NCBI GenBank assembly: GCA_018646625.1
Contig: JABGUJ010000001.1
Location: 131,534 to 195,533, forward strand
Direction: 5' to 3'
Length of the DNA stretch: 64,000 nucleotides
From: Candidatus Woesearchaeota archaeon
GTDB lineage: Archaea > Nanobdellota > Nanobdellia > Woesearchaeales > JABGUJ01
How positions within the stretch are numbered: the stretch's first letter is position 1; each line of letters opens with the position of its first letter. The notes below the pieces were generated by a model that did no database searches, was not told the DNA's origin, and was given only the letters and a program-made list of their open reading frames with translations. Shown piece by piece: positions 7,231 to 47,822 of this stretch. The translations under genes were made by a program, and so were the position numbers.

Positions 7231-8643
7231 CTAGTCATCAACCATCAATCTACGATAAGCTGCATGAGCGCGCGTTCTCTTGTCGGCAGGATCATCTAAG
7301 TGTTTTCGGATTTTGTCGTCATAATAATGCGGATCCGCTTTAAACTCATCATAATATCTAAGAAGTTTTCCTACATACCTAACAGTTCTCGGAAACTCAT
7401 GATATCTATGTACTCTACTTCCCCCTGCATGATAACCAGCAGCCATTTTCTCAGGATCTCTATCAAAACGTCTAGCCAACTTTTGCAGAACTCTACAGCC
7501 GGCTGTAACACCATATTCAATCTTATACAAATCTTCAGGTTCAACACCAACACCTCTAGATGTTCTAGGCATAACTTGCATTATTCCCATTGCACCTGCA
7601 GTTGAAGTAGACAAAGGTCTAAAGTTAGTTTCAACTCTCATAAAGGACAATATTAATCTATAATCCAGATTATACTCATCAGCTTTATCATGAACGAACT
7701 CCATGAAATTATCAAAATCAGTTAAATTACCATATTCCCCTGTTGATTGAAACCGATCATAACGAGGCCTAGCAACAGGAAACGATCTAGTTCTAGCACG
7801 TTTAGGAACAGCATCAGCCGCCAACGCCCGTTCAAAAGGGGCAAACGCTCTTGCAACATCACCATCAATAGAACCAGACAATTCTAATCTTCTTCCATCA
7901 GATAGCTCTTTACCCAACAAACGTTTTGCCAACACCATGTAAACATGTGGAAAACCATAAAATTTGTCGTCTTCTAAACAATCCAACATAACACTATCAA
8001 GTTGATCATCATCGTCTAACGTTCTGGCCAACCTATCTCGTTCCTTAACTAAATCCACAAATGGAATTCTCATAGGTCCAACCAAACCAAAGTTTTGATA
8101 TGCGTCACCTTTTACGACGGTAAACCCATCATCTTGCATTTCTCTAGTAAACGCGGCAGGATTAAACTGACCATCATAAACTAAAGTTCTAGATAAATCA
8201 TGTTGTATTTCAGCACCATCGAAAACCATATACCCTGGCCTAACCACTAAATCTTTAGTAACATAATCTACATGAAATCCTGTCTGTTTCATTGCAGATG
8301 CAATTCTTTTAGGTAAATTCAAATCCCCTGCTGAAGACGAATTCAAAATATACCACGCATAAGAATAAGACTCTTTTTCTAACATTTCTTGAGAAAGTGA
8401 TGCACTTCTTTTTCTACCCCAAGTAGATGTTCTAACAATCTGTTCTAGTTTTGCAAGAGTTTCTACTTCCGCTTTTTTAACTTGCGGCGCTCTTCTCTTA
8501 GCATGAGCCTCTCTAGAACCTCCAAAAAGCCAACCAAGAATACCCGTTTCAGCCACAACATAAGCTGCACCAACACCTCTAGTGCTAACTCTAAGAAAGT
8601 CTCTCCTGGTTCGTTCTGTTCCGGATGTAGAAATATCAGCCAT
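7231..8643 (-). CDS. Tat-exported lytic transglycosylase-like (SLT domain) protein
   Basis: A 470-residue exported protein. The N-terminus has a twin-arginine signal (TRRDFLRVST, about 12-21) followed by a hydrophobic stretch and an AHA-type cleavage site near residue 48, so it leaves the cell folded. Residues about 320-440 form an SLT/goose-lysozyme-like domain: RVETNF with the catalytic-type Glu338, then AGAMGIMQVMP, and AAGYHAGGSRV matching the family's AYNAG block. The middle about 250 residues are not recognised. SLT enzymes cleave murein, which archaea lack. Targets could be neighbouring bacteria, another glycan, or the fold may be re-used. A TATA-like box near 8678-8689 leaves a short leader. 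Confidence 0.85.
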   Translation of the reverse strand: MADISTSGTERTRRDFLRVSTRGVGAAYVVAETGILGWLFGGSREAHAKRRAPQVKKAEVETLAKLEQIVRTSTWGRKRSASLSQEMLEKESYSYAWYILNSSSAGDLNLPKRIASAMKQTGFHVDYVTKDLVVRPGYMVFDGAEIQHDLSRTLVYDGQFNPAAFTREMQDDGFTVVKGDAYQNFGLVGPMRIPFVDLVKERDRLARTLDDDDQLDSVMLDCLEDDKFYGFPHVYMVLAKRLLGKELSDGRRLELSGSIDGDVARAFAPFERALAADAVPKRARTRSFPVARPRYDRFQSTGEYGNLTDFDNFMEFVHDKADEYNLDYRLILSFMRVETNFRPLSTSTAGAMGIMQVMPRTSRGVGVEPEDLYKIEYGVTAGCRVLQKLARRFDRDPEKMAAGYHAGGSRVHRYHEFPRTVRYVGKLLRYYDEFKADPHYYDDKIRKHLDDPADKRTRAHAAYRRLMVDD

Positions 8644-9736: not shown

Positions 9737-10960
9737 TTAAGAGAAAATTCCCTTAAAGAAACTAAAGATGCCGTCAAAACCAACCATACCTGTTATCAAG
9801 TTTCCAGAGGCTCTGACCTTCACAAACTTACCATTCTCAACAGTAAAAACATCGTATGGTTTTTCAACTTCTCCAAACAAGTCAAATTCAAAAGTACCTG
9901 ATACGCCCTTAAATTCGCCCATTGAATAAAGATAATCTTTTACAGCATCTGCACTCCCATCAGTATTCCCTAAAGCTTGAATCACAATATTTGCAACATC
10001 ATAAGACTCAGGAGTATACGCATTGTATTCCTTACCAAATTCTTCAAAGTATGAAGAAGCAAATTGTTCCAACTCAGGAGAATCAGGAACACCTGGAAGA
10101 ATTACAAAAAAATCTTGATCTAAACTTTCTACAAAAGGAATTATAGAATCATCCTTAGCACCATCCGCCGCATATATAGGAACATCCAATCCTAATTCCA
10201 TAGATTGCTTAATAATTATTCCAGCCTGCTTAGGAAACGACATCATGTACAAGACATCAGGTTTCATTGCTTTGATTTTAGAAAGTTGAGTTTTAAAGTC
10301 AGCACCATCAACATCAAAGTTCTCAGTTGCAACAATGTTACCTTCAAAAGAACTTTCAAAGGCATTCTTCAATCCAACACCCCAATCATTATTGATGTAA
10401 ATAACTGCAACCCTCTTAAACTCTTCCGCAGCAAACAAATCAGCAGTTTCTTTAGCTTGCCCATTATCTGACGGAACTACTCTGAAAACATAATCACCAG
10501 ATTCTTTGATACTGGGATTTGTAGCCGAAGGACTTATCATAACAACACCAACCTGTTCAGCCATAGGGGCCATCCCCAAAACTTCAGGAGAACAAGTTCC
10601 TCCAATAATAACTTCAACTTTATTTACATTCATCAACTTTTGTGCAGCATTAACTGCATCCTTAGAATTACATCTACCATCTTCATAGATAACATGCAAC
10701 ATTCTACCATTTATGCCGCCATTAACATTGAGATCATTAACAACCATCTCAACAGTCTCTTTCATTGGCACACCAATAGATGCAACATCTCCAGTTAATG
10801 GACCAACATAACCTATAGTAAATGCAGACAAGTCAGATGCCAAATTAATCTGAGAAGGTGCTTGCACTTGCGGTTCAACCGCTTGCTCTCTTTGCTCAAG
10901 AGTACAACCAGAAAACATTGTTAAAACTAAAATTGTAAGTAATACTAGAATCTTCTTCAT
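9737..10960 (-). CDS. LivJ-type branched-chain amino acid ABC substrate-binding lipoprotein
   Basis: A type I periplasmic-binding protein of the Leu/Ile/Val family, about 407 residues, tethered as a lipoprotein (lipobox FSGC, Cys19). Typical blocks are IGYVGPLTGDVASIGVP, VIYEDGRCNSKDAVNAA, VIGGTCSPE, VISPSATNPSI, VFRVVPSD and VAVIYINNDWGVG. The start at 10960 is preferred over the in-frame codon at 10984 because GAGGG lies 8-9 nt upstream and the signal peptide begins MKKILVLL. No permease or ATPase genes lie nearby. It is paralogous to the protein at 30692-31738 and next to another LivJ-type gene. It may feed a distant transporter or act as a receptor; ligand unknown. Confidence 0.9.
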   Translation of the reverse strand: MKKILVLLTILVLTMFSGCTLEQREQAVEPQVQAPSQINLASDLSAFTIGYVGPLTGDVASIGVPMKETVEMVVNDLNVNGGINGRMLHVIYEDGRCNSKDAVNAAQKLMNVNKVEVIIGGTCSPEVLGMAPMAEQVGVVMISPSATNPSIKESGDYVFRVVPSDNGQAKETADLFAAEEFKRVAVIYINNDWGVGLKNAFESSFEGNIVATENFDVDGADFKTQLSKIKAMKPDVLYMMSFPKQAGIIIKQSMELGLDVPIYAADGAKDDSIIPFVESLDQDFFVILPGVPDSPELEQFASSYFEEFGKEYNAYTPESYDVANIVIQALGNTDGSADAVKDYLYSMGEFKGVSGTFEFDLFGEVEKPYDVFTVENGKFVKVRASGNLITGMVGFDGIFSFFKGIFS

Positions 10961-11022
10961 AGAAATCCCTCTTTTTAAGTTCATAAATAAAAAGAAAGAA
11001 AGAGGGTATAAAAGATTTACCC

Positions 11023-12354
11023 CTAATATTCAGCTAAAACTTCAGGTCTTCCGTTATCATAACGAATAACTTGATAATCCCTATAAGGTTCCCTAGTTAC
11101 ATTATCAAACCACAGACCGCCCGTTACACCAGACCGTTGTCCCATGCCTAAAAGATAATCATGGATCCCATTAGCATCATATCCACCAGTCTCTATTGCC
11201 TCTAGCAAAATCATTGTAGTATCATACGCATTAGCCGTATAAAGTTCATGAGGAACATCAGTTACATTGTAATATGCTCTAACCTTCTTCCTAAACATAG
11301 CAGCTTTAACATCTGAAAGATCATAAGCCATTCTAGAAAAAGTCACAGACTCAATACCTACACCCATCTCTCGAATTACTTCAGGTGTGTTAAAGGAATC
11401 AGTTCCAAAAATGTTTTTCCTCACTCCTAATTGAGCTAACTGTTTAACCAACTTAGGACCTTCACCATGTTGAGCAATGAAAACCGAATCAGGATCTCTC
11501 TTTAATGATCTAAAGATTGCATCCTTAAAGAACTGCTCCCCAGGATCAAACGCTTCTGCAATAACGATATCGTTGCCTCTGCCTGCTAACTGCTTCTCAT
11601 AAACACTCTCAAATCTATCATAGAGATAGTTACCATAGTTAGCGTCTCCAACATAGAATACTGCAGGCTTATGCAAACCTAAAGAATCCATATACCTGGC
11701 CATGATTCCAGCACCATAACTATCAAAAGGATAAGTAGTAAACAAGTACTTGTTCATGAACCTTGTTCGAGGATTACTTACTGCAGGAGAAATAACTAGT
11801 GTCTGAGTAAGATTTGTTAAATCGTCTAGGATAAATAGAGACTGTGCACATACAGGTCCAATGATTGCAGGAACATTTCTCAATCCAACAAGTTCAGCAA
11901 AGTTATGTTTTGCAACATTGTAATCGCACTTTGTATCTTTATACACAGCAACCACAGTTTTGTTATTAACACCACCTTCAGCATTAACTTCATCTATTGC
12001 TAAGTTAATACCTCTAGCAATTGCGATACCAACTTTAGAAAACTCTCCAGATGTTGGCAACATAACACCAATAACGACATCTTCATTCTTTGTTCTATCA
12101 ATGTCAGCAATATCTATTATTTTTATTTCTCCATTGGGATACACAATCTCAAACATTGTTTGAGGTTCTTCGGGAGTTACATTTAGAGTGTCATTAGTTA
12201 ACGGTTCAGGATCTGCCTTAAACCAGTCCTTAAAACCAGAAAAATCAAATGTATTAGATAATATAAATCCAATAATTACAATTGCTACTAAAACAAAAAC
12301 AATTTGTTTCCATAAATTATTCTTCTTCGAAATTTTTATCTTCTTTCTTGCCAT
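11023..12354 (-). CDS. Membrane-anchored LivJ-type ligand-binding protein
   Basis: A 443-residue protein with one N-terminal transmembrane anchor (about 16-36), a Pro/Thr linker and a type I periplasmic-binding fold from about residue 85: IGVMLPTSGEFSKVG, VYKDTKCDYNVA, AIIGPVCAQS, LVISPAVSNPRTR. Unlike its neighbour it has no lipobox and keeps an uncleaved anchor. An AGGTGA sequence 5 nt before the ATG at 12354 supports this start over an in-frame GTG at 12363. The 60 nt to the next gene could allow co-transcription with the 9737-10960 gene. No transporter partners are present, so a sensing role is possible. Confidence 0.88.
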   Translation of the reverse strand: MARKKIKISKKNNLWKQIVFVLVAIVIIGFILSNTFDFSGFKDWFKADPEPLTNDTLNVTPEEPQTMFEIVYPNGEIKIIDIADIDRTKNEDVVIGVMLPTSGEFSKVGIAIARGINLAIDEVNAEGGVNNKTVVAVYKDTKCDYNVAKHNFAELVGLRNVPAIIGPVCAQSLFILDDLTNLTQTLVISPAVSNPRTRFMNKYLFTTYPFDSYGAGIMARYMDSLGLHKPAVFYVGDANYGNYLYDRFESVYEKQLAGRGNDIVIAEAFDPGEQFFKDAIFRSLKRDPDSVFIAQHGEGPKLVKQLAQLGVRKNIFGTDSFNTPEVIREMGVGIESVTFSRMAYDLSDVKAAMFRKKVRAYYNVTDVPHELYTANAYDTTMILLEAIETGGYDANGIHDYLLGMGQRSGVTGGLWFDNVTREPYRDYQVIRYDNGRPEVLAEY

Positions 12355-12452
12355 ACATCTCACCTAGTAAATATCATACTTCTAATCCATCTCGATTTAT
12401 TTAAAAATATTGTGAAAGCTTTAAAAGCCTTTGAAACTAACCCCTAAATAGC

Positions 12453-14823: not shown

Positions 14824-15213
14824 ATGGCTGATTTGCCATCAAAGATATTTTTCATCATAGGAGGAGTTATTACAGTCTTCTCCTTTTTGTATAATTTCTT
14901 CTTGAAAACTAATTCTCTAACTTTATTTGTAATTATTGGTGTTTTGTTCATAATTTACGGCGCAATAAAATATTTCTTTTTAGAAAAAAATGGAAGAGAA
15001 CAAAAAAAAAAAGTTGTGCATCAACATAATGTAAGACAACACGCACAAAAACAACAACTACATCATGCGCCTATGCGTCAACAACCACAACAGCACACTC
15101 AACACCACTACACTCGCGCAGATAATGTAATGTGTCCCAGATGTGGAACTAAAGTCGCGTCTTCCGCAAACTTTTGCCCTTCTTGTGGTTTTCGTCGAAG
15201 TCAACGTCATTAG
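14824..15213 (+). CDS. Small membrane protein with C-terminal zinc ribbon
   Basis: A 129-residue protein with two predicted membrane helices (about 8-26 and 34-53), a basic His/Gln-rich linker (about 58-100) and a zinc ribbon, CPRCGTKVASSANFCPSCG (about 103-121). The two CxxC pairs would bind one zinc on the cytoplasmic side. Such zinc-ribbon membrane proteins are common in archaea without defined function. It follows SerRS at 14 nt behind a GAGGTG ribosome binding site. The stop TAG interleaves with the stop of the convergent gene in a 4-nt overlap. Function unknown. Confidence 0.85.
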   Translation: MADLPSKIFFIIGGVITVFSFLYNFFLKTNSLTLFVIIGVLFIIYGAIKYFFLEKNGREQKKKVVHQHNVRQHAQKQQLHHAPMRQQPQQHTQHHYTRADNVMCPRCGTKVASSANFCPSCGFRRSQRH

Positions 15214-16142
15214 TCTTCACCATAATGAGTAGCAACCGCGTTTGCTAAATTAGCATCTCCGCCAGCAATTATTTCTTTCATTCTTGTTGCTAACGCGCCA
15301 TGTTCTTCTAGTCCGTGAACTTTCTGCACAGTAACTGCTACATCGTGCTGCCTGTTATCCAATGATCTCATTACAGATCCAAACATGTATGCTTTATAGA
15401 ACTCACCAAGATCAGTATTAAGTCGATCCGCCCAAGCATTAGCATCATACGATCTAGAACCCTCTACCTCAATCTTAAGATAATCTCGAGAATTGTATAT
15501 GGTGCTAACTGAAAGTAAAGCACGCTCATTACTAACGGAATTAAACTCAGAGGGAAATTTAGAAACATCAACCCAAATTCCTTCAGTACGATCGCCAGAA
15601 GTTCTTTTATACCTCCCATTAGAATCTACAAGAGATAACGAAACCGCCAAACCTGAATCACGATCAAAAATATTGAAATCTGGACGTCTATTCTCATAAC
15701 CCCGTCTTGCAAGTTCATGTAAAAAATAATTTTTTAATCTACCATATCCTTCATCAGCAACATCTGTTGCAAATCCTACCAGGTCATCAAAAGTAACTTC
15801 GCCTTTAGGTTCAACAACTCCACTAACAACACCAGAGCGATCAAGTCTTGATTCAATTCCACCAACTCGCGTTTCAACTTTACCGGCTCGTTCACGTAAT
15901 TGTACCATATCAGCTTGGACCCAACCTCGACCTTCACCATTGGATTTCTTAAGTGCTGTTTCATTTGCAGCCACTCGCGTAGTCAATTTAGTAACAGAAA
16001 CCGCAACCACTTTAACTGCACCTGAAACATAATCTGCAAGACTTAATCGAGTCTCTTGACCGTCATCATCACTTTTAACTAATTCAGGAAATCTTCCTAC
16101 AACATACCTTCTGACATCTTCTAATTTTATAAATCCAAACAT
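15210..16142 (-). CDS. Unknown protein, last gene of seven-gene operon
   Basis: A 310-residue protein I do not recognise. Residues 1-55 are mixed alpha/beta. Residues about 55-110 look like a coiled coil (VAANETALKKSN, then QLRERAGKVETRVGGIESRL). The remaining 200 residues alternate strand-like and helical segments with no catalytic motif that I can see. There is no signal peptide or membrane helix, so it is probably cytoplasmic. It lies 35 nt after the preceding gene, with GAGGT about 10 nt before the ATG. The coiled coil suggests oligomerisation. It differs from the two paralogous families upstream in the same operon. Confidence 0.85.
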   Translation of the reverse strand: MFGFIKLEDVRRYVVGRFPELVKSDDDGQETRLSLADYVSGAVKVVAVSVTKLTTRVAANETALKKSNGEGRGWVQADMVQLRERAGKVETRVGGIESRLDRSGVVSGVVEPKGEVTFDDLVGFATDVADEGYGRLKNYFLHELARRGYENRRPDFNIFDRDSGLAVSLSLVDSNGRYKRTSGDRTEGIWVDVSKFPSEFNSVSNERALLSVSTIYNSRDYLKIEVEGSRSYDANAWADRLNTDLGEFYKAYMFGSVMRSLDNRQHDVAVTVQKVHGLEEHGALATRMKEIIAGGDANLANAVATHYGED

Positions 16143-16177
16143 TTTTCTAATTACCTCAATCTAATTCTTTTGACATT

Positions 16178-17305
16178 TTACTCAGAATCTCCAGACGTTT
16201 TATCATAAATTGGAGTCGCAACTCTTCCAGTATCGTATAATGGAACCACTTCTAATCTTCCTGTCGGAAAATGAGCAATAGCCACACCACATGCGGGAGG
16301 AAGATATCTTATTTCAACACCAGTAGGCGCTCTTGCAATCACAGTACCATCAGGTAGCAATGATTCATCAGGAGTAGCTTCTCTAGTTTCATACTCAGTA
16401 GCAAAAGAAACCTCACCCGCCGGACCTTGTTCAAGCATATCAGAAAGTTCTCCTCCAAGAACATGATCATACAAAACTTCACTTCCAAGACTTCGATCAA
16501 GTTCAACTAAAATTTGTTCAACAGCATCAGTATTCCCTTCATTAGCCATTCCATTATCTAACAATGATTGAAGAAACGCTCTAGAATAATCAGGACTAGC
16601 ACCACCATAAGTAGCTAAACAAACACCTTCAGCATAATCTCCTAACCCCCATTCAGAATCTAATTCTTGTCTTCCAGAAGACCAAAGACCTGCTTTAAAC
16701 TGCGAAGTTTCTCTAACAACAAGATTTCCAACAATTCTCCCTGTTTCATCGTCATAATGGACATCAGTAGCACCAACGTCACAGTTAGTTAAGTTTCTAC
16801 CAGATTGATACGCAAATTTTCCTAATAGATAAAATTTTTCAGACCTAATTCGACCTTCAGGTAAATCTTCAGTCCCACTACCAGAAGCAAAGTCTGCCAA
16901 TTTACCTTCTAAACTAGAAAACAAATCAGCTAAAACTCCACTCTTAGGAACATCAAGACGTTTTTCATCTACCACGTCCGCCAAATCTAGTTTGTAAATT
17001 CGAGTACCTCTATCATTAAAAATAGTAGTCGAATCTCTACCTTCATTCCTGCTAGCATCTAAAGTACTAATAGACCAAACTTCATCATGAACACTTCTAG
17101 GTCCCGGTTTAACACAAGTCAAACTAACAGAACCGGTTGTAATAACATCATCATTCAAAACAAGATCATCTGCTCTAGCAATATAAACCAAACCATCTGA
17201 TTCAATAACAGCAGTTAAAGGATCTACATCCATTTCTCTAACATACGAGTCAGCAACACCCTCAGGCACTGCAACTAATTCCCTTATAGCTTTTTCGTCA
17301 CTCAT
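16178..17305 (-). CDS. Unknown protein, paralogue of the 17307-18689 product
   Basis: A 375-residue acidic protein with no recognised family. It shares an order of blocks with its upstream neighbour: W-S-(I/V)-S-T near residue 80, a DD-x-(T/G)-(G)-x-(I/L)-VG-(N/D)-LVVRET block near 210-225, W-x-LGD, and a C-terminal segment with PDGT and FPTG turns (about 315-360). The start at 17305 (ATG with GGTGA 8 nt upstream) is preferred to an in-frame TTG 15 nt further up. No membrane helix, signal or metal motif is visible. The paralogy shows the operon grew by duplication. Confidence 0.87.
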   Translation of the reverse strand: MSDEKAIRELVAVPEGVADSYVREMDVDPLTAVIESDGLVYIARADDLVLNDDVITTGSVSLTCVKPGPRSVHDEVWSISTLDASRNEGRDSTTIFNDRGTRIYKLDLADVVDEKRLDVPKSGVLADLFSSLEGKLADFASGSGTEDLPEGRIRSEKFYLLGKFAYQSGRNLTNCDVGATDVHYDDETGRIVGNLVVRETSQFKAGLWSSGRQELDSEWGLGDYAEGVCLATYGGASPDYSRAFLQSLLDNGMANEGNTDAVEQILVELDRSLGSEVLYDHVLGGELSDMLEQGPAGEVSFATEYETREATPDESLLPDGTVIARAPTGVEIRYLPPACGVAIAHFPTGRLEVVPLYDTGRVATPIYDKTSGDSE

Positions 17306-17306
17306 T

Positions 17307-18689
17307 TTATTGTTCACCAAACATATCCATCACAGCCGTCTCACACTCAATCAAACGTTCTGCAATTGCACCATCATACTGTGCACTCGCGCTATCAACA
17401 GCACAAGAGCTAACCCTAGGTAAACGAGTACGGGCTCTAAAAATATCATCTGAACTTGCTCTTGCTCTAATAGAACCGTCCGCACCAGTCAACAAATAAT
17501 CTCCAGATTTAGGAAAAGTAACTTGTGTTGACCCATCAGGAAATTTTGCATGAGTGAAAGAATTCTCATCTCCGCTAATCACAGTACCATCAGGAAAACC
17601 AGCATAAATCTCTCCACACCTTACATGACAAGGCGCAACTGCTTCATACTCAACAGAATCATCAGCAACAGAAACATCATCAGCAGATGCAACAAGAGCA
17701 TCAACATCATAAACAGAATCCATCAACCCTTGTCTTTGAACTCTAAAAATTGTTTCTAAACCATACTGAACTTGTAAAGTTACATGATCAATACCAGGCA
17801 AGTTATCAGAAGAGACAAGACCCTTCTCATCCATAGCCGCATACAATGCACCTTGGTAATTAGTTGTAACTCCAGAAGCATTCGCTAAAGAAACATTCTT
17901 AACTCTATCTCCCAAGTCCCATTCTCTTACAGTTCTATCAACAGAAAAATCACCAAAACGACCATCTTTTACCGCTTCAGTTTCACGCACAACTAAATCA
18001 CCAACTAGCTGACCGTCATCATCAATATAAGCATCTCTTACAAGAACTTCACAATCTACGGTGGTTGTTCCAAGTAGGCCTTTTTGTTCATATTGGAAAG
18101 TTGATAGTCTAACATAAAGAGGATCAGTCATACCGGGAGTAACTCCCAATTCAACTTTTTCAGAAGGCAAAGGAGTAGCAACACGAGTTTGCAGTCCTAA
18201 AGTTCCAGCCTTAGGCGAATCATCATACGCAACACCAGTTTGAAACGTAGCAAGCTCTGCCTCAGGCAAATCATCATACGCTCGAGTATTCAAAAAAGCA
18301 TAAAGAGCATCTCCGAAGTTCGCTCTGATCTCTCTAACCAAATCTGCAGATACAAGTCTATTTTCATCACTTAATGCCTCAACTAAATCAAACATATACT
18401 TAGGTCCATTAGTTGAATCAAAAATAATGGGAACATCAGTTATACCGTCGGCAGTACTAACCGACCAAGCAACTCTTCCATCATCTTTAGTAACATAATC
18501 TAAAGTAACCACGCCTCTTAATTCTCGATTAACAAGAAATCTGTCGGGGTCAACAAGAGTCTCAGCTCTTATTCGTAATTGGTCACCCCAATCTAAATCT
18601 ACAACCGCCTCAAGAGAAGGTTCAACACCACCTTCAACAGGAACAAAAAGTTCTCCATTTAAACCTAACACGCTTTTATCAGCACTCAT
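17307..18689 (-). CDS. Unknown protein with repeated PDG turns, paralogue of 16178-17305 product
   Basis: A 460-residue acidic protein of unknown function. The shared core includes VAWSVSTADG, DDDGQLVGDLVVRET and W-DLGD. It has an extra insert in the middle (about 150-190) in which YDDLPEAELATFQTG and YDDSPKAGTLGLQTR look like an internal duplication. Near residues 350-425 there is a run of short strands with turns FPDGTVISG, KFPDGSTQV, FPKSGDYLL and GADGSI. This spacing recalls the PDG/NG repeat sheets of T-complex/CPAP G-box domains, although I would not assign homology by eye. AAGGAGG upstream of the ATG at 18689 fixes the start; the frame is open further up. Confidence 0.88.
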   Translation of the reverse strand: MSADKSVLGLNGELFVPVEGGVEPSLEAVVDLDWGDQLRIRAETLVDPDRFLVNRELRGVVTLDYVTKDDGRVAWSVSTADGITDVPIIFDSTNGPKYMFDLVEALSDENRLVSADLVREIRANFGDALYAFLNTRAYDDLPEAELATFQTGVAYDDSPKAGTLGLQTRVATPLPSEKVELGVTPGMTDPLYVRLSTFQYEQKGLLGTTTVDCEVLVRDAYIDDDGQLVGDLVVRETEAVKDGRFGDFSVDRTVREWDLGDRVKNVSLANASGVTTNYQGALYAAMDEKGLVSSDNLPGIDHVTLQVQYGLETIFRVQRQGLMDSVYDVDALVASADDVSVADDSVEYEAVAPCHVRCGEIYAGFPDGTVISGDENSFTHAKFPDGSTQVTFPKSGDYLLTGADGSIRARASSDDIFRARTRLPRVSSCAVDSASAQYDGAIAERLIECETAVMDMFGEQ

Positions 18690-18690
18690 T

Positions 18691-19278
18691 TTATTTTCCT
18701 CCTTTTGACGCATCTCTACACGCCCTAACAAAACCATCATAAACACCCGCAACATAATCTATAATATCAGCATCTAAAGTCATACTCCCCATATCAAAAC
18801 CATCTCTAACTCTAGTTACAAATTCTTGAACCGCAGGATCTGCAGGTTCTGGTCCGGGCCAAGCACCATCAACCATATGAGACATAGCAAACATAGTAAG
18901 ACGTTGCACATCATAACCAACTGCATCCACATCTTGCACTTCTGAAAGTCTAACCAAATAATCTTCAAAAGGAACTCTCAGAGGTTCACCCTCAAAACGA
19001 ATCCTAGAAGGACCACTATGAATTCCAAAACGTTGATCATAAAAATCGAACAAAACCACACCACTTTCATAAGAAGTTACCGACCTAAGAGAAACATCTC
19101 CAGGAAAGTAATCAAAACCTAACATACCAGGACTTGGAGCTACAAAAGTTGTTTGCCCCAAAGCAGATTCGCCATTCCAGACTAAGAGATCATCATCATC
19201 ACCAGCGGGAAATAATCTAAATCTAATTCCGCATTCCAACATTGACTCTAATCCATCAGGTAAAACTATCTTACTCAT
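18691..19278 (-). CDS. Unknown small protein of a three-member paralogous family (copy 3)
   Basis: A 195-residue protein. It shares with the products at 19782-20465 and 20462-21082 an N-terminal LPxGLExxLxxGxxL pattern, a middle (R)-(L/V)-x-EVxxxxVxxYDxxxLxxFA block and a C-terminal helix with (V)-x-x-x-Y-x-x-F-(V). The N-terminal half is strand-rich, the C-terminal half helical. No enzyme motif is visible. The start overlaps the previous gene by ATGA and the stop sits 1 nt from the next gene, so translation is coupled. GAGG lies 5 nt upstream. Confidence 0.87.
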   Translation of the reverse strand: MSKIVLPDGLESMLECGIRFRLFPAGDDDDLLVWNGESALGQTTFVAPSPGMLGFDYFPGDVSLRSVTSYESGVVLFDFYDQRFGIHSGPSRIRFEGEPLRVPFEDYLVRLSEVQDVDAVGYDVQRLTMFAMSHMVDGAWPGPEPADPAVQEFVTRVRDGFDMGSMTLDADIIDYVAGVYDGFVRACRDASKGGK

Positions 19279-19775
19279 CTTCTTCCTCTCTTTATTTTAT
19301 AACTTACATGATCTGTCCTAGTTCCTGTCGGTCGTTTTTGTTGTTCAAACTCATTAAACATTGCCGCAGTAACTCTCGGACCTAAGTTCTCAGGATTAGC
19401 CAAAACAGCAGTAGTAATCATTTCAGCATACTCACTACAAAACTCACCACCAATTTCAGGACTGGCATCCACCATGGTATTTGTATGAACTTTAGAATAC
19501 CCTAACCTTCCAATAGAACCATCAGCATCACGATGATAAAAGCCAGTTTCATAAAGAACAGGTTCTTCACCTCTAAGATCCAAAACACTCACCACCAAAC
19601 CAGGCAATAAAGGACCAACCGGAGTACGCCTAACTACGTGCTCATTAAAACATGCAGCCACGCCCTCTTCTAATTCCAACTCAGAAACCAAACTATCGTG
19701 ATCACGACCGAACAAATAATTCCGCGCCACCTTACAATCATCAGTTCCTAAAAATTCATCAATTGTAACATCCAT
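19275..19775 (-). CDS. Unknown 166-residue protein in the seven-gene operon
   Basis: Not recognised. It lacks the LPxGLE signature of its neighbours and is the only operon member without an evident paralogue here apart from the last gene. It has an acidic N-terminal half and a basic, probably disordered tail (QQKRPTGTRTDHVSYKIKRGRR covers the end). The middle includes VVSVLDLRGEEPVLYETGFYH, which looks like two beta strands. The basic tail could bind nucleic acid or acidic partners such as the very acidic paralogues in the same operon; this is conjecture. It starts 6 nt after the preceding stop and overlaps the following gene by 4 nt. Confidence 0.82.
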   Translation of the reverse strand: MDVTIDEFLGTDDCKVARNYLFGRDHDSLVSELELEEGVAACFNEHVVRRTPVGPLLPGLVVSVLDLRGEEPVLYETGFYHRDADGSIGRLGYSKVHTNTMVDASPEIGGEFCSEYAEMITTAVLANPENLGPRVTAAMFNEFEQQKRPTGTRTDHVSYKIKRGRR

Positions 19776-19781
19776 TTTTTA

Positions 19782-20465
19782 TTATACCTCTTCACAATAT
19801 CTTCGAAAAACAACCTGTGCGCTACTAAAAGCATCATACGCTCGTCTAAGAGTTTCAGATCCATCAATCGCATCCACTAAACGATCCAAAGCAGCATCAG
19901 TTAAAGTCGCCTTAGCCGGATCCATACCATCTGTCAATCTGAAACCCAAAAGTTTCGATTCAAAAGTAGATGAAAAACCATCAGAAGCAGAATTCAAAAT
20001 GTGAAATCTAGCAAACGCGCCCAATTCACGCTTATTATAATCTAGTACCGAAGGTTTAACTTCACCAGACTCATGCACTTCTTGAACCCTTTCCAAATAC
20101 TTACCAAAACCCACTCTGGTTGGACTATGAAGATGAGCGGACTCATCAGGAGTCTCAGATACGACGAACGAACTATCATCATCAAACCGAAAAGCATGTT
20201 GACCAGGACCATATTCCCTTTTTTGAAGTTTTGCACCACGTGGAGAATACTGAACTTCCAGTCTTCCAGATGTTGGAGAAATAAAATAAGTTAGACCTGG
20301 AGCTTGATTCAATAAAAAAAGAGTAAAAGTACAATCAGGAGGATGGTCTTCACGATAGCCAGAAGGAATTAATTCAACACCATTAGCTAACAACTGTTCT
20401 AAAGGACCAAGGCCCAATCTAAGAGGATAATGGTTTTTTCTATATGTTCTGTCTTCATCACTCAT
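19782..20465 (-). CDS. Unknown small protein of the three-member paralogous family (copy 2)
   Basis: A 227-residue paralogue of the first and fourth operon products. Recognisable blocks are LGPLEQLLANGVEL (about 19-32), RVQEVHESGEVKPSVLDYNK followed by ELGAFARFH (about 125-155) and LTDAALDRLVDAIDGSETLR with AYDAFSSA (about 190-220). The N-terminal domain is likely beta (TYFISPTSGRLEVQYSP), the rest helical. No signal peptide, so cytoplasmic. ATGA overlap with the upstream gene couples translation. No function can be assigned. Confidence 0.87.
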   Translation of the reverse strand: MSDEDRTYRKNHYPLRLGLGPLEQLLANGVELIPSGYREDHPPDCTFTLFLLNQAPGLTYFISPTSGRLEVQYSPRGAKLQKREYGPGQHAFRFDDDSSFVVSETPDESAHLHSPTRVGFGKYLERVQEVHESGEVKPSVLDYNKRELGAFARFHILNSASDGFSSTFESKLLGFRLTDGMDPAKATLTDAALDRLVDAIDGSETLRRAYDAFSSAQVVFRRYCEEV

Positions 20466-21082
20466 TCTTCTTCACCTCTAACAGGTAATCTGTGCCCAGC
20501 CACATAAGCATGATACATACTCCTAAGATTCGGAGTCTCAACAATCTTACGCGAGAAAAGCACCACCATCTCATCGCTTAACAAACCAGTACCAGAATCT
20601 AAAGCACCTCTTACCTCTGAAACTATGAACGCAAATGCAGAATCAACATTAGGATTTGGATGATTCTCAAAATAAGAAGACTTAGCAAACGCAGATAATG
20701 CAACAGGGTCATAAGCAGCAACCTCAGAATTCTTTAATTCCAAAACACGCCTAGCATACAGAATAGGATCAACATTAGAAAAATCAATAAATTCCCTATA
20801 CCCTTCATTACATCTTGAACATAATGTAAAACATGCTCCATCAGAAAAAGGCAACGAATACAGCGAGGACTTACTGGACTGAGTTAGAAGAGGAACTCCA
20901 GTAAAAGTATGCGTCCAACTCATAGAACCAACAAAGGGCATGACAGTAGCCCCAAGAACATCTTCAGAATTGGAATGATGAGTAGAAACACCAAAATCAG
21001 AACCAGAACTGAAACTCAATTCAACTCCGTGTTGTAACAATAATTCTAAACCTTCCGGCAACCTAGTATTTTCATCAGTCAT
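20462..21082 (-). CDS. Unknown small protein of the three-member paralogous family (copy 1), first operon gene
   Basis: A 206-residue protein opening the operon. It carries the family pattern: LPEGLELLLQHGVELS (about 8-23), RVLELKNSEVAAYDPVALSAFA (about 112-133) and LLSDEMVVLFSRK with LRSMYHAYVAG near the end. It has three cysteines, two of them in a CSRC pair in the middle, which the other copies lack. A TATA-like box (minus strand, about 21182-21191) predicts a leader of about 75 nt, and GAGG lies about 8 nt before the ATG. The divergent neighbour is an Lrp regulator, a candidate controller of the operon. Confidence 0.88.
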   Translation of the reverse strand: MTDENTRLPEGLELLLQHGVELSFSSGSDFGVSTHHSNSEDVLGATVMPFVGSMSWTHTFTGVPLLTQSSKSSLYSLPFSDGACFTLCSRCNEGYREFIDFSNVDPILYARRVLELKNSEVAAYDPVALSAFAKSSYFENHPNPNVDSAFAFIVSEVRGALDSGTGLLSDEMVVLFSRKIVETPNLRSMYHAYVAGHRLPVRGEEE

Positions 21083-21180
21083 CTTCTAAACCTCATATAG
21101 TTCGAAAATGACTGTTTTCAGAATTCACATTCCGCGGGTGTTATCAGTCTAAACCAGCTTACTACAAGGTAGTGACAACA

Positions 21181-21257
21181 AGTATATAACTCTTTCTAAC
21201 AAGAATATGACGGAAATCACAAGAAATATGCAAAAAACATATAAATTCTTGCATATT
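21181..21257. promoter_or_regulatory. Divergent promoter with 9-bp inverted repeat around the lrp TATA box
   Basis: AATATGCAA (21225-21233) and TTGCATATT (21249-21257) are exact reverse complements separated by 15 bp. Between them lies CATATAAATT (about 21239-21248), the TATA box of the Lrp gene at 21268. Occupation of the repeat would block TBP binding, as in autorepressed Lrp promoters. A minus-strand TATA for the seven-gene operon (AGTATATAAC, 21181-21190) is about 40 bp away. Nearly the same repeat occurs at 31807-31853. Confidence 0.65.
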
Positions 21258-21267
21258 TATACAACTT

Positions 21268-21726
21268 ATGGCAATAGATGAAAAAGACAGACAAATCTTA
21301 AGAGCCCTAGAACGTGACGCCAAGCTCTCTAGTCAGAAGATTGCAGACTTAACAGGAATCCCAATCACAACAGTACATTACAGAGTCAAGAACCTAAGAA
21401 AAACTGGAGTAATCAAAGGACAAACAATCAAGATAGATTACGAAAAAATAGATAGAGGAATGCTAATTTACGTTACCGTTTTCCTAAACATAGAACGAAT
21501 GAGAGAAAAAAACATAATACAAAAAGACATAGAGAAAGAACTTCTAAAAATAGAAAACATAGAGAAATGCGATCACATAATGTCCACAGGTAGTTTCATG
21601 TTACAAGTAAGAGTAAAAGATCAAAAAGAGTACAGGATTGTACTACAAAGAAAAATTCATGCAGTTAATGGAATAAGAGATACACAATCAGTCATAACTC
21701 TATTAGAAAGTGAAAGAAATTCATAA
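21268..21726 (+). CDS. Lrp/AsnC-family transcriptional regulator
   Basis: A 152-residue Lrp-type regulator. Winged helix: DRQILRALERDAKLSSQKIA then TTVHYRVKNLRKTGVI (about 7-55). RAM domain: about 65-145, ending with VNGIRDTQSVITL. The leaderless start fits the TATA box 25 nt upstream, which is flanked by a perfect inverted repeat. It resembles the 4357-3908 regulator in length and in a VRVKDQKEYR-type RAM segment, so the two may be paralogues. Divergent to the unknown seven-gene operon. Effector unknown. Confidence 0.93.
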   Translation: MAIDEKDRQILRALERDAKLSSQKIADLTGIPITTVHYRVKNLRKTGVIKGQTIKIDYEKIDRGMLIYVTVFLNIERMREKNIIQKDIEKELLKIENIEKCDHIMSTGSFMLQVRVKDQKEYRIVLQRKIHAVNGIRDTQSVITLLESERNS

Positions 21727-30136: not shown

Positions 30137-30705
30137 TGACTCTAGACCAACGCCTCCTGACAGGCAAGGATAGAAGAGATTACGAAAAGGTCAGGCTATT
30201 TTTTGGGGAAGTAGCCAAACATATTCCCCTTAGTGCCGACACTCCGATTGTCGACCTCTGCTGCGGCAACGGAATGCTCGGCTTTTATTTTTTAGAACTT
30301 TACCCAGAAGGTTATGTGCATTTCTATGATCAACAACAAACAGAAAGATTTAGAGAACTCGCCGAAGGAAAAACCAATTACACCTTCCATCAAGAAGACA
30401 TCAACACTCTAACGCAAACAGAAGAAGGAATACTCCTTTCAATACACGCCTGCTATATTTTAACAGACAAAGTAATTGAGTTAGGGTTACAAGAACACAA
30501 ACCATTTGCAATAATGCCTTGCTGCCACAGAAGAGAAATGATCCAGCAATGCGAAACTCCACCACACGTTCTACACACATATGGCTTGGCCGATTACATA
30601 GACATTACAAGAGCCAACGCAATAAGAGATCAAGGAAGATCATGCACATTAACAGAAATAAAAAGAAATAGAAAAAAGAAAAATAATTTAATTATTGTAC
30701 CTTAA
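30136..30705 (+). CDS. SAM-dependent methyltransferase-like protein (Methyltransf_32/METTL25-like)
   Basis: A 189-residue class I methyltransferase fold. Motif I is VDLCCGNGMLGF (39-50). The LLSIHACYILTDKVI and AIMPCCHR segments match the HaCG-x-LT and PCC blocks typical of the METTL25/GSTCD-like family (Methyltransf_32 in Pfam), whose substrates are proteins or RNA. The C-terminus is very basic. It starts 1 nt inside the lysS stop codon and is probably co-expressed, so a role in translation or tRNA is reasonable but unproved. It overlaps the convergent gene at 30692 by 14 nt. Confidence 0.8.
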   Translation: MTLDQRLLTGKDRRDYEKVRLFFGEVAKHIPLSADTPIVDLCCGNGMLGFYFLELYPEGYVHFYDQQQTERFRELAEGKTNYTFHQEDINTLTQTEEGILLSIHACYILTDKVIELGLQEHKPFAIMPCCHRREMIQQCETPPHVLHTYGLADYIDITRANAIRDQGRSCTLTEIKRNRKKKNNLIIVP

Positions 30706-31738
30706 CAAACGCTCCACCTTCTACAGTAAAAAGATCGTATGGCTTTTCTATGTCGCCGAATGCATCAAACACAACTGTACCTGCAACACCATCAAATGAT
30801 TTTACAAGTTTCATTCCTTCAACAACATCATCTGATTTTTCTGCAGCCAAAGCAACAACATTCATTGTATCGTATGCCTCACCAGAGTATAACTTAGGAT
30901 CTTCTCCAAACTTTGCAAGATACTTAGCTGCAAAATCAGAGTACTTATCACCTTCAGCCATAGGAACCGTTATCAAGATACCCTCACCGAAAGGCAAGAC
31001 TTCACTATCCTTTGCACCTTCAACCGCAACAACCTGCGCTTCAATACCCATTTCTTTAATTTGCTTCAAAGCGAGTGCCGCATCTTTAGGAAACGCAACC
31101 AAATAGATTGCATCCACATCCTTAATCTTTGTAAGTTGAGTTCTAAAGTCTTTAGAGTCCGGTTCAAAACTTTCTGTTGCAAAAATCTTATCACCAATCT
31201 CTGCTTTAACAACATCCCTTAAGCCAACACCATAATCATGGCTAATATGCAATATTGCAATTTCACTAAAACCCTTCTCAACCATCAACTTAGCACCAAC
31301 TTTACCCTGTAATGCATCTGAAGGAGCCAACCTAAACACATGCTCACCGGCATCAGTTATTGAAGGAGCCGTAGCTGACGGAGATATTACCAACACACCA
31401 TCTAATTCTGCAACAGGCGCAATTGCCAGCAACTCAGGTGAACAAACAACAATAATTGCATCAACTTTGTGAACATCTCTTAAAGTTCTATATGCACCTA
31501 GTGCATCTTTACCATTACATCTACCATCTTGATAAAACATTTCAACTTCTAAATCTGAAGCCGCTAGTTCAACACCCTTTCTTATTGGCTCACCAATAAA
31601 AGCAGCATCTCCAGTTAACGGTCCAATGAAACCAACCTTCAATATATCTTCTTTAACAGGTTGACCAGTGATCTTTTCAGCACAGCCTACAAAAACTAAA
31701 CACATAATGATCATAATTAAACATAAAATCTTTCTCAT
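30692..31738 (-). CDS. LivJ-type ABC substrate-binding lipoprotein
   Basis: A 348-residue Leu/Ile/Val-type binding protein with lipobox VFVGC (Cys19). Blocks GFIGPLTGDAAFIGEP, YQDGRCNGKDAL, VVCSPELLAIAP, VISPSATAPSI, VFRLAPSD and VAVEGAKDSEVLPFG align with the 9737-10960 product; the two are clear paralogues. It also ends with the same kind of FDAFGDIEKPYDLFTVE segment. GGAGGTG precedes the ATG. No ABC permease or ATPase is adjacent. The divergent neighbour is a tandem Lrp protein, which may sense the same amino acid and control this gene. Confidence 0.91.
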   Translation of the reverse strand: MRKILCLIMIIMCLVFVGCAEKITGQPVKEDILKVGFIGPLTGDAAFIGEPIRKGVELAASDLEVEMFYQDGRCNGKDALGAYRTLRDVHKVDAIIVVCSPELLAIAPVAELDGVLVISPSATAPSITDAGEHVFRLAPSDALQGKVGAKLMVEKGFSEIAILHISHDYGVGLRDVVKAEIGDKIFATESFEPDSKDFRTQLTKIKDVDAIYLVAFPKDAALALKQIKEMGIEAQVVAVEGAKDSEVLPFGEGILITVPMAEGDKYSDFAAKYLAKFGEDPKLYSGEAYDTMNVVALAAEKSDDVVEGMKLVKSFDGVAGTVVFDAFGDIEKPYDLFTVEGGAFVKVQ

Positions 31739-34270: not shown

Positions 34271-35038
34271 ATGAGTATTAGAGACACAGCAGAGAAAGCA
34301 ATAGAAAAATCTCGCCAAATCATCTTAGATTATTATAATAAAGAATTTAATCTAAAACACAAAGTAGGTAGAGATATAGTCACACAAGCAGATCTAGACT
34401 CAGAAAAAGCAATCATCGATCAAATAAAAAAAGACTTTCCAGATCATAGAATTCTATCAGAAGAATGCGGAGACAAAAAAGAAGTCTCAGACTACATGTG
34501 GATCATCGACCCAATAGATGGCACAATGAACTTCGCAAAAGGCATGGAGGAATATTGTATTTCAATAGGTGTAGAACACAAAGGAGAATTAGTATTTGGA
34601 ATAATTCATAAACCTAAGACTAATCAAACATACTTCGCAGAAAAAGGTAAAGGCGCATTCCTAGACGGAAAACAAATAAAAGTATCACACGAAACAGAAT
34701 ACAAAGACATGACCTTGGGCACAGATTGTAGTCATGTAGATGAAGTTCAAAAAGAAAACTTTGAGAAATTAACAAATATGTGTACAGACTTTAGAACAAT
34801 CAGAATAATGGGTAGCACCGCATTACACCTTGCAAGACTTGCAGAGGGACATCTTGATCTATACTACAAAAACAGATTTCACTATTGGGACTTTGCCGCA
34901 GGAACACTCATACTGCAAGAAGCAGGTGGGAAAATAACAGATTTTGATGGCAACCCAATCAACAAAGATTCAAAAAACGCAGTTGCAACAAACGGAATAA
35001 ACCACGAAAAATTTCTAGAACTAGTCAATAGAGTCTAA
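34271..35038 (+). CDS. Inositol monophosphatase-family phosphatase
   Basis: A 255-residue Mg2+-dependent, lithium-sensitive-type phosphatase. Motifs: ILSEECG (metal ligand Glu), WIIDPIDGTMNFAKG (the DPIDGT signature) and HYWDFAAGTLILQEAGG (second signature). In archaea this family dephosphorylates inositol 1-phosphate and often fructose 1,6-bisphosphate, serving phospholipid head groups or gluconeogenesis. It starts 1 nt after the small lipoprotein gene and is probably co-transcribed. Its 3' end overlaps a convergent unknown gene by 18 nt, the longest such overlap in the window. Confidence 0.93.
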   Translation: MSIRDTAEKAIEKSRQIILDYYNKEFNLKHKVGRDIVTQADLDSEKAIIDQIKKDFPDHRILSEECGDKKEVSDYMWIIDPIDGTMNFAKGMEEYCISIGVEHKGELVFGIIHKPKTNQTYFAEKGKGAFLDGKQIKVSHETEYKDMTLGTDCSHVDEVQKENFEKLTNMCTDFRTIRIMGSTALHLARLAEGHLDLYYKNRFHYWDFAAGTLILQEAGGKITDFDGNPINKDSKNAVATNGINHEKFLELVNRV

Positions 35039-35434
35039 CACCACCCTTCTAACAGTATATTTTCTACACAACCTTGCTAAACTTCTAGGAAACAAATCGC
35101 CGCCTGAATTAGTAAACTGAACGACCGCGGTTGCAGGTCCTATAGGTATATCGGCAAAAGCTACACACTCCAAATGCCTCCTTATAACATCATCAATAAA
35201 ATCAGGCTCATGATCAAAATTACCAAATTCAGAATCTATAGGCGAGGCAGGAACTTGATAACTACCATCAGAAAACATCGCAAAATATGGGAAGCCAAAA
35301 CCAGAATAACGTCTTTGAACCACCTCAATAAACCTTTGATGATTTAACAAATCCGACTCAGTCAATTGAAGACCTGGACTAAGAAAAGTTGGTAAATCGC
35401 CCTTAACTGTAACCAAATACAAGTCTTCCCCCAT
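35021..35434 (-). CDS. Unknown 137-residue protein
   Basis: I do not recognise this protein. It is soluble and mixed alpha/beta: strands at the start (EDLYLVTVKGD), an aromatic middle with FGFPYFAMFSDGSYQVP, and a basic end with LARLCRKYTVRRVVLD. No catalytic motif is visible. A TATA-like GTTTAAATAA (minus strand, about 35471-35480) and GGAGG ahead of the ATG support expression. It is convergent with the phosphatase gene and overlaps it by 18 nt. Confidence 0.75.
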   Translation of the reverse strand: MGEDLYLVTVKGDLPTFLSPGLQLTESDLLNHQRFIEVVQRRYSGFGFPYFAMFSDGSYQVPASPIDSEFGNFDHEPDFIDDVIRRHLECVAFADIPIGPATAVVQFTNSGGDLFPRSLARLCRKYTVRRVVLDSID

Positions 35435-46686: not shown

Positions 46687-47031
46687 CTATTCGACACTAA
46701 AAGTCCCAGTACCCATGTTCATGGAACAAGCAATTCCAAAAGTTCCAGTTTTATCAGGCGTAAAACTAATCACATTATCCGTCTCAGATACCAATTTTCT
46801 AACATCAAACTCAGAAATAACTACATCCCTCATACAGCCATGCAAACTACCAAGATCTGCTTCAAGCTCAACAGGAACATCTTTCATAAGTACTGACGGT
46901 TTAAGCACATAAGTACCACCATCCATGGTAAGCTGTACCTTTTGAACATTATCAAAAGTAAACAAACCAGTCGTACCACAACCAGCCACAAAAGCTAGTA
47001 AAAAAATTAGTAAGAACTTTATTGATTTCAT
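46687..47031 (-). CDS. Cupredoxin-like lipoprotein
   Basis: A 114-residue lipoprotein (lipobox VAGC, Cys18). After the signal comes a cupredoxin-type beta sandwich: DVPVELEADL, then VVISEFDVRKLV, NVISFTPDKTGTFGIACSMNMG and a final TFSV strand. The C-S-M-N-M-G end resembles the Cys/Met ligand loop of small cupredoxins found beside copper pumps. The early Cys in LHGCMRD is in the place of a second ligand. Last gene of a three-gene operon; its ATG overlaps the previous stop by 4 nt. It likely binds copper outside the cell. Confidence 0.78.
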   Translation of the reverse strand: MKSIKFLLIFLLAFVAGCGTTGLFTFDNVQKVQLTMDGGTYVLKPSVLMKDVPVELEADLGSLHGCMRDVVISEFDVRKLVSETDNVISFTPDKTGTFGIACSMNMGTGTFSVE

Positions 47032-47822
47032 AGTTTACCCCCGCAACTTCCAGAACCACCACAGCTCCCACCACAACTACCGCCGCAACTAGAACCACAT
47101 CCGCCGCCGGATCCACCGCAGCCTCCGCCACAACTAGATGTAGGTGTAGACGCAACAGGTTCAATTGATGAAGATAAAGCAGCTTCCAAACCGCCAACAA
47201 CTGTCGCAGGATATTCATCAAAAACTTCTAATGACAACATCTCGGATTTAGTAGTCAAAGAAGCATCATACTTAACATCAAATTTATTTGGAAAACTAAA
47301 CTCAATATCAGCAACTCCCGGCAAAGTTTTTAACTCAGTAGAAATCAAAGGAGCATGCCCCGAACAAGGAATATCAACTTTCATAGCTAATGAAGATAAA
47401 CTATCAACATCACCTACAAACATACCAGTTGCACTAGACGCAATGCTAACGTTCGCCAACATAGGAAAGATCAATAAGAACAATACCAAATTAATTCCAA
47501 TTGTTGAACCGTACATTGTTGCTAAATATTTCCATTTTGTTCTAGCACCGGACAAAGATAACATGCCGTGCTTTCTCAAGTACAAAACAGAAGACAAAGT
47601 AGCAAATCCAATTGATATCAAAATCAACGCATGAAAGAAATATCTATTCATCAACAAAGGTTTGAAAAACTGCATTAATACAGTTACGCCTAAAATCGAT
47701 CCAATAATAAATGCAATACAACCAATATGGGGAATTAAACCATACATAAGACCCTCCCATAAACCGTTTGCTTTTTTCTTAGGGCCACAACAATTTTTTC
47801 GTTTAGTAGTTTTTTTAGTCAT
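47028..47822 (-). CDS. Membrane protein with HMA-like domain and Cys/Gly-rich tail
   Basis: A 264-residue protein. The basic N-terminus contains a CC pair (NCCGPKKK), then three or four membrane helices (about 25-52, 60-80, 95-120) are followed by a domain at about 145-200 (KVDIPCSGHAPLISTELK, then GVADIEFSF) that copies an HMA fold with CSGH in place of MxCxxC. The last 40 residues are repeats of CGG/CGS, about ten cysteines. The architecture suggests a metal-relaying membrane protein. It overlaps the HMA chaperone gene upstream and the cupredoxin gene downstream by 4 nt each. I know no characterised example of this layout. Confidence 0.8.
   Translation of the reverse strand: MTKKTTKRKNCCGPKKKANGLWEGLMYGLIPHIGCIAFIIGSILGVTVLMQFFKPLLMNRYFFHALILISIGFATLSSVLYLRKHGMLSLSGARTKWKYLATMYGSTIGINLVLFLLIFPMLANVSIASSATGMFVGDVDSLSSLAMKVDIPCSGHAPLISTELKTLPGVADIEFSFPNKFDVKYDASLTTKSEMLSLEVFDEYPATVVGGLEAALSSSIEPVASTPTSSCGGGCGGSGGGCGSSCGGSCGGSCGGSGSCGGKL

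Follow-up and report, generated by a model that had tools for sequence, protein, structure and literature searches.

In the window, a 64,000-nucleotide stretch of contig JABGUJ010000001.1 from a Candidatus Woesearchaeota archaeon, seven open reading frames (ORFs) lie head to tail on the minus strand between positions 15210 and 21082, and are referred to as P7, P6, P5, P4, P3, P2 and P1 in their order from the upstream gap (Table 1). Successive genes from P7 to P1 are spaced by -4, +6, -4, +1, +1 and +35 nt, so that P7/P6 and P5/P4 overlap by 4 nt and the other junctions are gaps of 1-35 nt, and Shine-Dalgarno-like motifs (GAGG, GGTGA or GGAGG) stand ahead of all seven starts (7/7), as expected from the original prediction of seven head-to-tail genes with their own ribosome binding sites. 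A divergent Lrp/AsnC gene flanks the run upstream, and downstream lies a convergent zinc-ribbon gene (14824-15213) preceded by serS; the 3' end of P1 overlaps the zinc-ribbon gene by 4 nt, so that both ends of the unit are closed. One shared strand, overlaps or very short gaps and individual ribosome binding sites are the hallmarks of an operon, and we infer that the seven genes are probably co-transcribed as one unit.

Table 1. Features of the seven-gene operon and its upstream region (window coordinates).
Feature	Position	Strand	Length	Description
Lrp/AsnC-family gene	21268-21726	+		Pfam HTH_AsnC-type (1.7e-12) and AsnC_trans_reg (1.5e-10); divergent, candidate local regulator
lrp-P7 intergenic region	21083-21267		185 bp	Palindrome, three direct repeats, TATA-like element
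P7	20462-21082	-	206 aa	First gene, family A; GAGG ribosome binding site; P4-P7 27% identity, E 3e-6
P6	19782-20465	-	227 aa	Family A; P4-P6 29% identity, E 2e-10
P5	19275-19775	-	166 aa	Single-copy orphan; basic tail KIKRGRR, tail charge +5 over the last 25 aa
P4	18691-19278	-	195 aa	Family A; model with beta strands at 18-103, then helices
P3	17307-18689	-	460 aa	Family B; strongest ribosome binding site (GGAGG)
P2	16178-17305	-	375 aa	Family B, shorter C-terminus
P1	15210-16142	-	310 aa	Last gene; predicted coiled coil at ~34-103 and C-terminal region of ~200 aa

The seven ORFs are real genes. Their synonymous codon usage correlates with that of the neighbouring minus-strand genes of the window at an RSCU r of 0.93, compared to 0.42 for the plus-strand genes, and the former value falls inside the range of single known genes; such native-like usage is what real genes would show, and the paralogy among the products, at 25-29% identity, indicates that the reading frames have long been maintained. 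Hydropathy maxima did not exceed 1.37 over 19 residues and no membrane segment or signal peptide was evident in any of the seven products, consistent with the earlier claim that both are absent and supporting the view that the products are soluble.

The products fall into four families, namely family A (P4, P6 and P7), family B (P2 and P3), P5 and P1. Paralogous pairs share 25-29% identity with E values from 3e-6 to 6e-13 (for P2 and P3, 25% identity over ~320 aa at E 6e-13), and P6 and P7, for which direct comparison was not significant, are linked through P4. The predicted arrangement of three paralogues of a small family and two of a larger one was therefore recovered, and the finding of the paralogues within the operon agrees with the proposal that it was built by duplication. 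Comparison with hhalign revealed no ancestry shared between family A and any of B, P5 and P1. Within the own genome, only operon proteins passed in the searches with profiles A1 and A2, and profile searching at maximum sensitivity through the ORFs in ~310 kb of the own contig, thirteen 20-kb stretches of which were sampled, yielded no additional copies of the operon families; as far as searched, the paralogy appears to be confined to the operon. Judged by sequence comparison, five of the seven genes are thus old duplicates of two ancestors. Conservation in family A falls mostly on G, L, F, Y, A, P, D and E columns, and His, Cys and Lys are nowhere conserved, a pattern better explained by a constraint on the fold than by catalysis. 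The core of family B retains the charged residues R235, E236, D219 and D261 (P3 numbering), and an enzymatic role could therefore still apply to this family. With respect to the single-copy products, P5 has the basic tail ascribed to it, and the coiled coil ascribed to P1 stands as a crude prediction by heptad-count scan.

None of the seven proteins had a convincing match in Pfam, PHROGs, NCBIfam or PADLOC, in line with their initial description as unrecognised: the best PHROGs match (E 0.012) was to a family of unknown function, and no operon protein matched a PADLOC family of known anti-phage defence. Searches against PDB sequences with P1, P3, P5, A1 and A2 returned weak, mutually unrelated matches alone. 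Those to titin, serine-protease and antibody light-chain sequences were put down to chance, as was a Rhodococcus plasmid match to P1 (E 0.1) that lay within lnt, and a WD40 match at E 0.02 failed the cut-off. The PDG repeat of P3 suggested the G-box (Tcp10_C) beta repeat of CPAP/SAS-4, since two PDG turns at residues 361-395 are alike; however, the likeness to CPAP is not significant (phmmer E 0.62), there is neither a profile match nor a repeat array, and Pfam Tcp10_C has no match in the genome. AlphaFold2 modelling of family A on P4 (profile A1, three sequences) gave a mean pLDDT of 62 and a pTM of 0.53, and the P3 model had a pLDDT of 41, better just at ~192-312. The suggested Foldseek comparison returned no match at E<=0.001 for either model, but models this weak say little in favour of a new fold.

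Since such models are too weak to exclude known folds, and since DPANN genomes encode many proteins without predicted function (PMC9258230), we considered whether the operon could be a known system that has evolved fast, such as a surface or interaction system or one for defence, whose families have become unrecognisable by sequence. We consider this rather unlikely, given that the family collections are empty at significance, that the PDB matches are unrelated to one another, that signal peptides and membrane segments are absent and that the searches recovered paralogues at 29-30% identity, so that only deeper divergence could hide a relationship. At the level of sequence, the families would count as categorically new in that nothing matched in the collections searched, which says nothing on demonstrated function.

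To what extent the operon occurs elsewhere can be judged from samples of related genomes, although the GTDB family of the source organism consists of a single genome. In order samples of 145-288 genomes per query (P1, P2, P3, P5, P7 and profile A1, within which alone P4 was searched in related genomes) convincing matches were found in the own genome alone, with no relative of P2 in 145 order genomes, and the same held at the convincing level for profile A2 in 281 class genomes and for P6 in 252 phylum genomes. Matches in other genomes at E 0.001-0.1 were weak, and those read or interrupted by stops look like chance: five read by eye fell on a beta-helix-type protein, an SRP54 neighbourhood, a CheR-like methyltransferase, a DHH-type phosphoesterase and a coiled-coil repeat, and, of the others, some were short and some broken by stops, the two P7 matches containing several stops each. 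Because the searches did recover the operon paralogues at 29-30% identity, most relatives that divergent would have shown up. In this respect, the operon resembles the archaeal lineage-specific blocks of hypothetical proteins, which are also co-occurring proteins without functional prediction, but such blocks occur almost throughout major groups (PMC9258230), whereas the operon was seen in a single genome. The best named matches of the SerRS are mostly from Woesearchaeota (63-65% identity), with one at 68% labelled Methanomicrobia, and place the organism in this group of archaea, the Woesearchaeota. Several relatives retain serS and the zinc-ribbon gene, the serS region holds different genes in the 4 relatives whose flanks were read, and tblastn detected an operon homologue at 0/80 serS loci. 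The gene order, which the original prediction had proposed to look for in related genomes and whose lack of conservation there it had named as refuting, is thus absent from the order, class and phylum samples, an outcome that is not decisive as the GTDB family holds one genome. Of the claim of an undescribed system, a real and unexplained operon is upheld, and the word 'system' is weakened by a gene order that is not conserved in related genomes.

Archaeal viruses often carry orphan genes duplicated in tandem. Genes of this kind, set as a block between the conserved serS-zinc-ribbon unit and lrp where the relatives read hold others, might represent a module, domesticated or degraded, that derives from an unknown archaeal virus or mobile element, with A and B as virion or particle proteins and P1 as a fibre-like or scaffold protein. 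However, apart from the PHROGs result, no relatives were found in IMG/VR (P1, A1, A2 and P5, with P4 and P7 covered by profile A1) or in phage records (P1, P2, P3, P5 and P6), the window contains no tRNA, no integrase or packaging ATPase was recognised by eye near the operon, ten neighbours of which were scanned with Pfam, and the synonymous codon usage is native; a viral origin is therefore improbable in our judgement. The window also contains no regularly spaced repeat family of the CRISPR-array type. The combination of several small and several larger paralogues is a size pattern superficially shared with contractile injection systems and tailed-virus particles, but neither Pfam nor PHROGs matched any operon protein to a sheath, tube, baseplate or AAA family.

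Relative to a sample of 280 ORFs of the own contig, the K/(K+R) ratio of all seven proteins lies within the lowest 1-5%, so that they behave as one cohort in this measure, and their pI is 4.2-5.6. GC3 of the genes is 0.16-0.26, equal to or below that of the neighbours, and GC1/GC2 are mostly raised. Seven lysine-poor proteins with raised GC1/GC2 could point to recent horizontal transfer of the whole operon from a lysine-poor, GC-richer donor; against this, the genes share the low GC3 and the synonymous codons of their neighbours, which makes a recent foreign origin unlikely, no P3 relative was found among GTDB r220 contigs, in a search that reaches close relatives only, and none of P1 or P3 among PLSDB plasmids. 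Taking these points together, we regard recent transfer as very unlikely.

The lysine-poor bias is also shared by some enzymes and by single unannotated minus-strand genes of contig C2 at 166554-166967 (window 35021-35434; with no Pfam match), 208613-209113 and 219526-220434, the last two each sharing 4 nt with the end of a plus-strand gene. In the relative WJJV01000064.1 an unannotated 250-aa gene (L021, 7103-7855, minus strand), lysine-poor by eye and unrelated to the operon by tblastn, is encoded immediately ahead of serS on the other strand. The window as a whole (1-64000) displays strong strand asymmetry, with a mostly negative GC skew and an A-/C-rich plus strand, and this shapes the codon use of minus-strand genes. 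Elsewhere in the window, the minus-strand gene at 7231-8643 encodes, in an archaeon, a protein with a twin-arginine-like N-terminus and an SLT lytic transglycosylase domain (Pfam E 2.7e-17), which fits the murein transglycosylases and possible predatory lifestyle reported in Woesearchaeota (PMC9723730). Three further minus-strand genes (9737-10984, 11023-12363 and 30692-31738) resemble, by eye, LivJ-type branched-chain amino-acid substrate-binding proteins, with no adjoining permease genes seen, and the gene at 47028-47822 (minus strand) encodes a protein with a Cys/Gly-rich tail (SSCGGGCGGSGGGCGSSCGGSCGGSCGG).

Upstream of P7, the divergent gene encodes an AsnC-type HTH and an AsnC_trans_reg domain, which assigns it to the Lrp/AsnC family. 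The intergenic region contains a palindrome, AAATATGCAA-N15-TTGCATATTT, at 21224-21258, whose core has a single perfect match (0 mismatches) in the genome; three direct repeats of ~12 bp that proceed towards the operon in exact 21-bp steps (minus-strand starts 21230, 21209 and 21188); and a TATA-like element, GTTATATAC, at 21190-21182 on the minus strand. In a shuffle test the repeat period gave p 0.007 for 20-22 and p 0.049 for any period of 10-32, values that flatter a pattern noticed before testing and are of modest significance. Since archaeal Lrp-type regulators often adjoin their targets, also divergently, and have sites spaced by two or three turns of the helix (PMC2995911, PMC10201364), control of the operon by Lrp is plausible by analogy. 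The arrangement resembles that of BarR of the Sulfolobales and of Ss-LrpB, in which a divergent Lrp gene shares a common intergenic region with its target and several sites lie two helical turns apart (PMC10201364, PMC2995911), but here the target is an orphan seven-gene operon with putative sites and not an amino-acid enzyme.

Overall, the best explanation of the locus, which we hold tentatively and with rather less than even confidence, is a lineage-restricted, possibly Lrp-controlled operon for a soluble hetero-oligomer made by duplication. A promoter in the lrp-P7 gap would drive transcription, and the divergent Lrp/AsnC protein, bound to the phased sites of the gap, would probably control it. 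Two ancestral genes would have been duplicated in place long ago, and the resulting soluble, mostly acidic and lysine-poor proteins of families A, B, P5 and P1 would most likely assemble in the cytoplasm, with the A and B paralogues filling related yet distinct positions and P1 supplying an oligomerising coiled coil. Cytoplasmic assembly into a hetero-oligomer is the most parsimonious picture, though still short of an even chance, because there is no membrane segment and no catalytic signature in family A, and because the subunits are duplicated and a coiled coil is predicted. From these features we infer regulation, the formation of a complex and a role in structure or binding, not in enzymatic catalysis; against this, no homologue was found in another genome, so a conserved function appears to lack support. 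More speculative, and in our estimate quite unlikely, is that the four families without known relatives form one heteromeric particle or scaffold of an undescribed kind, belonging to a deep Woesearchaeal branch and placed under a dedicated Lrp switch. The operon is interesting dark matter and not yet a demonstrated system. If its products do assemble, they would constitute a protein machine none of whose parts is recognised, in a lineage regarded as mainly symbiotic; as it stands, the operon is a compact case in which to study how local duplication gives rise to sets of orphan genes that retain a common amino-acid bias.
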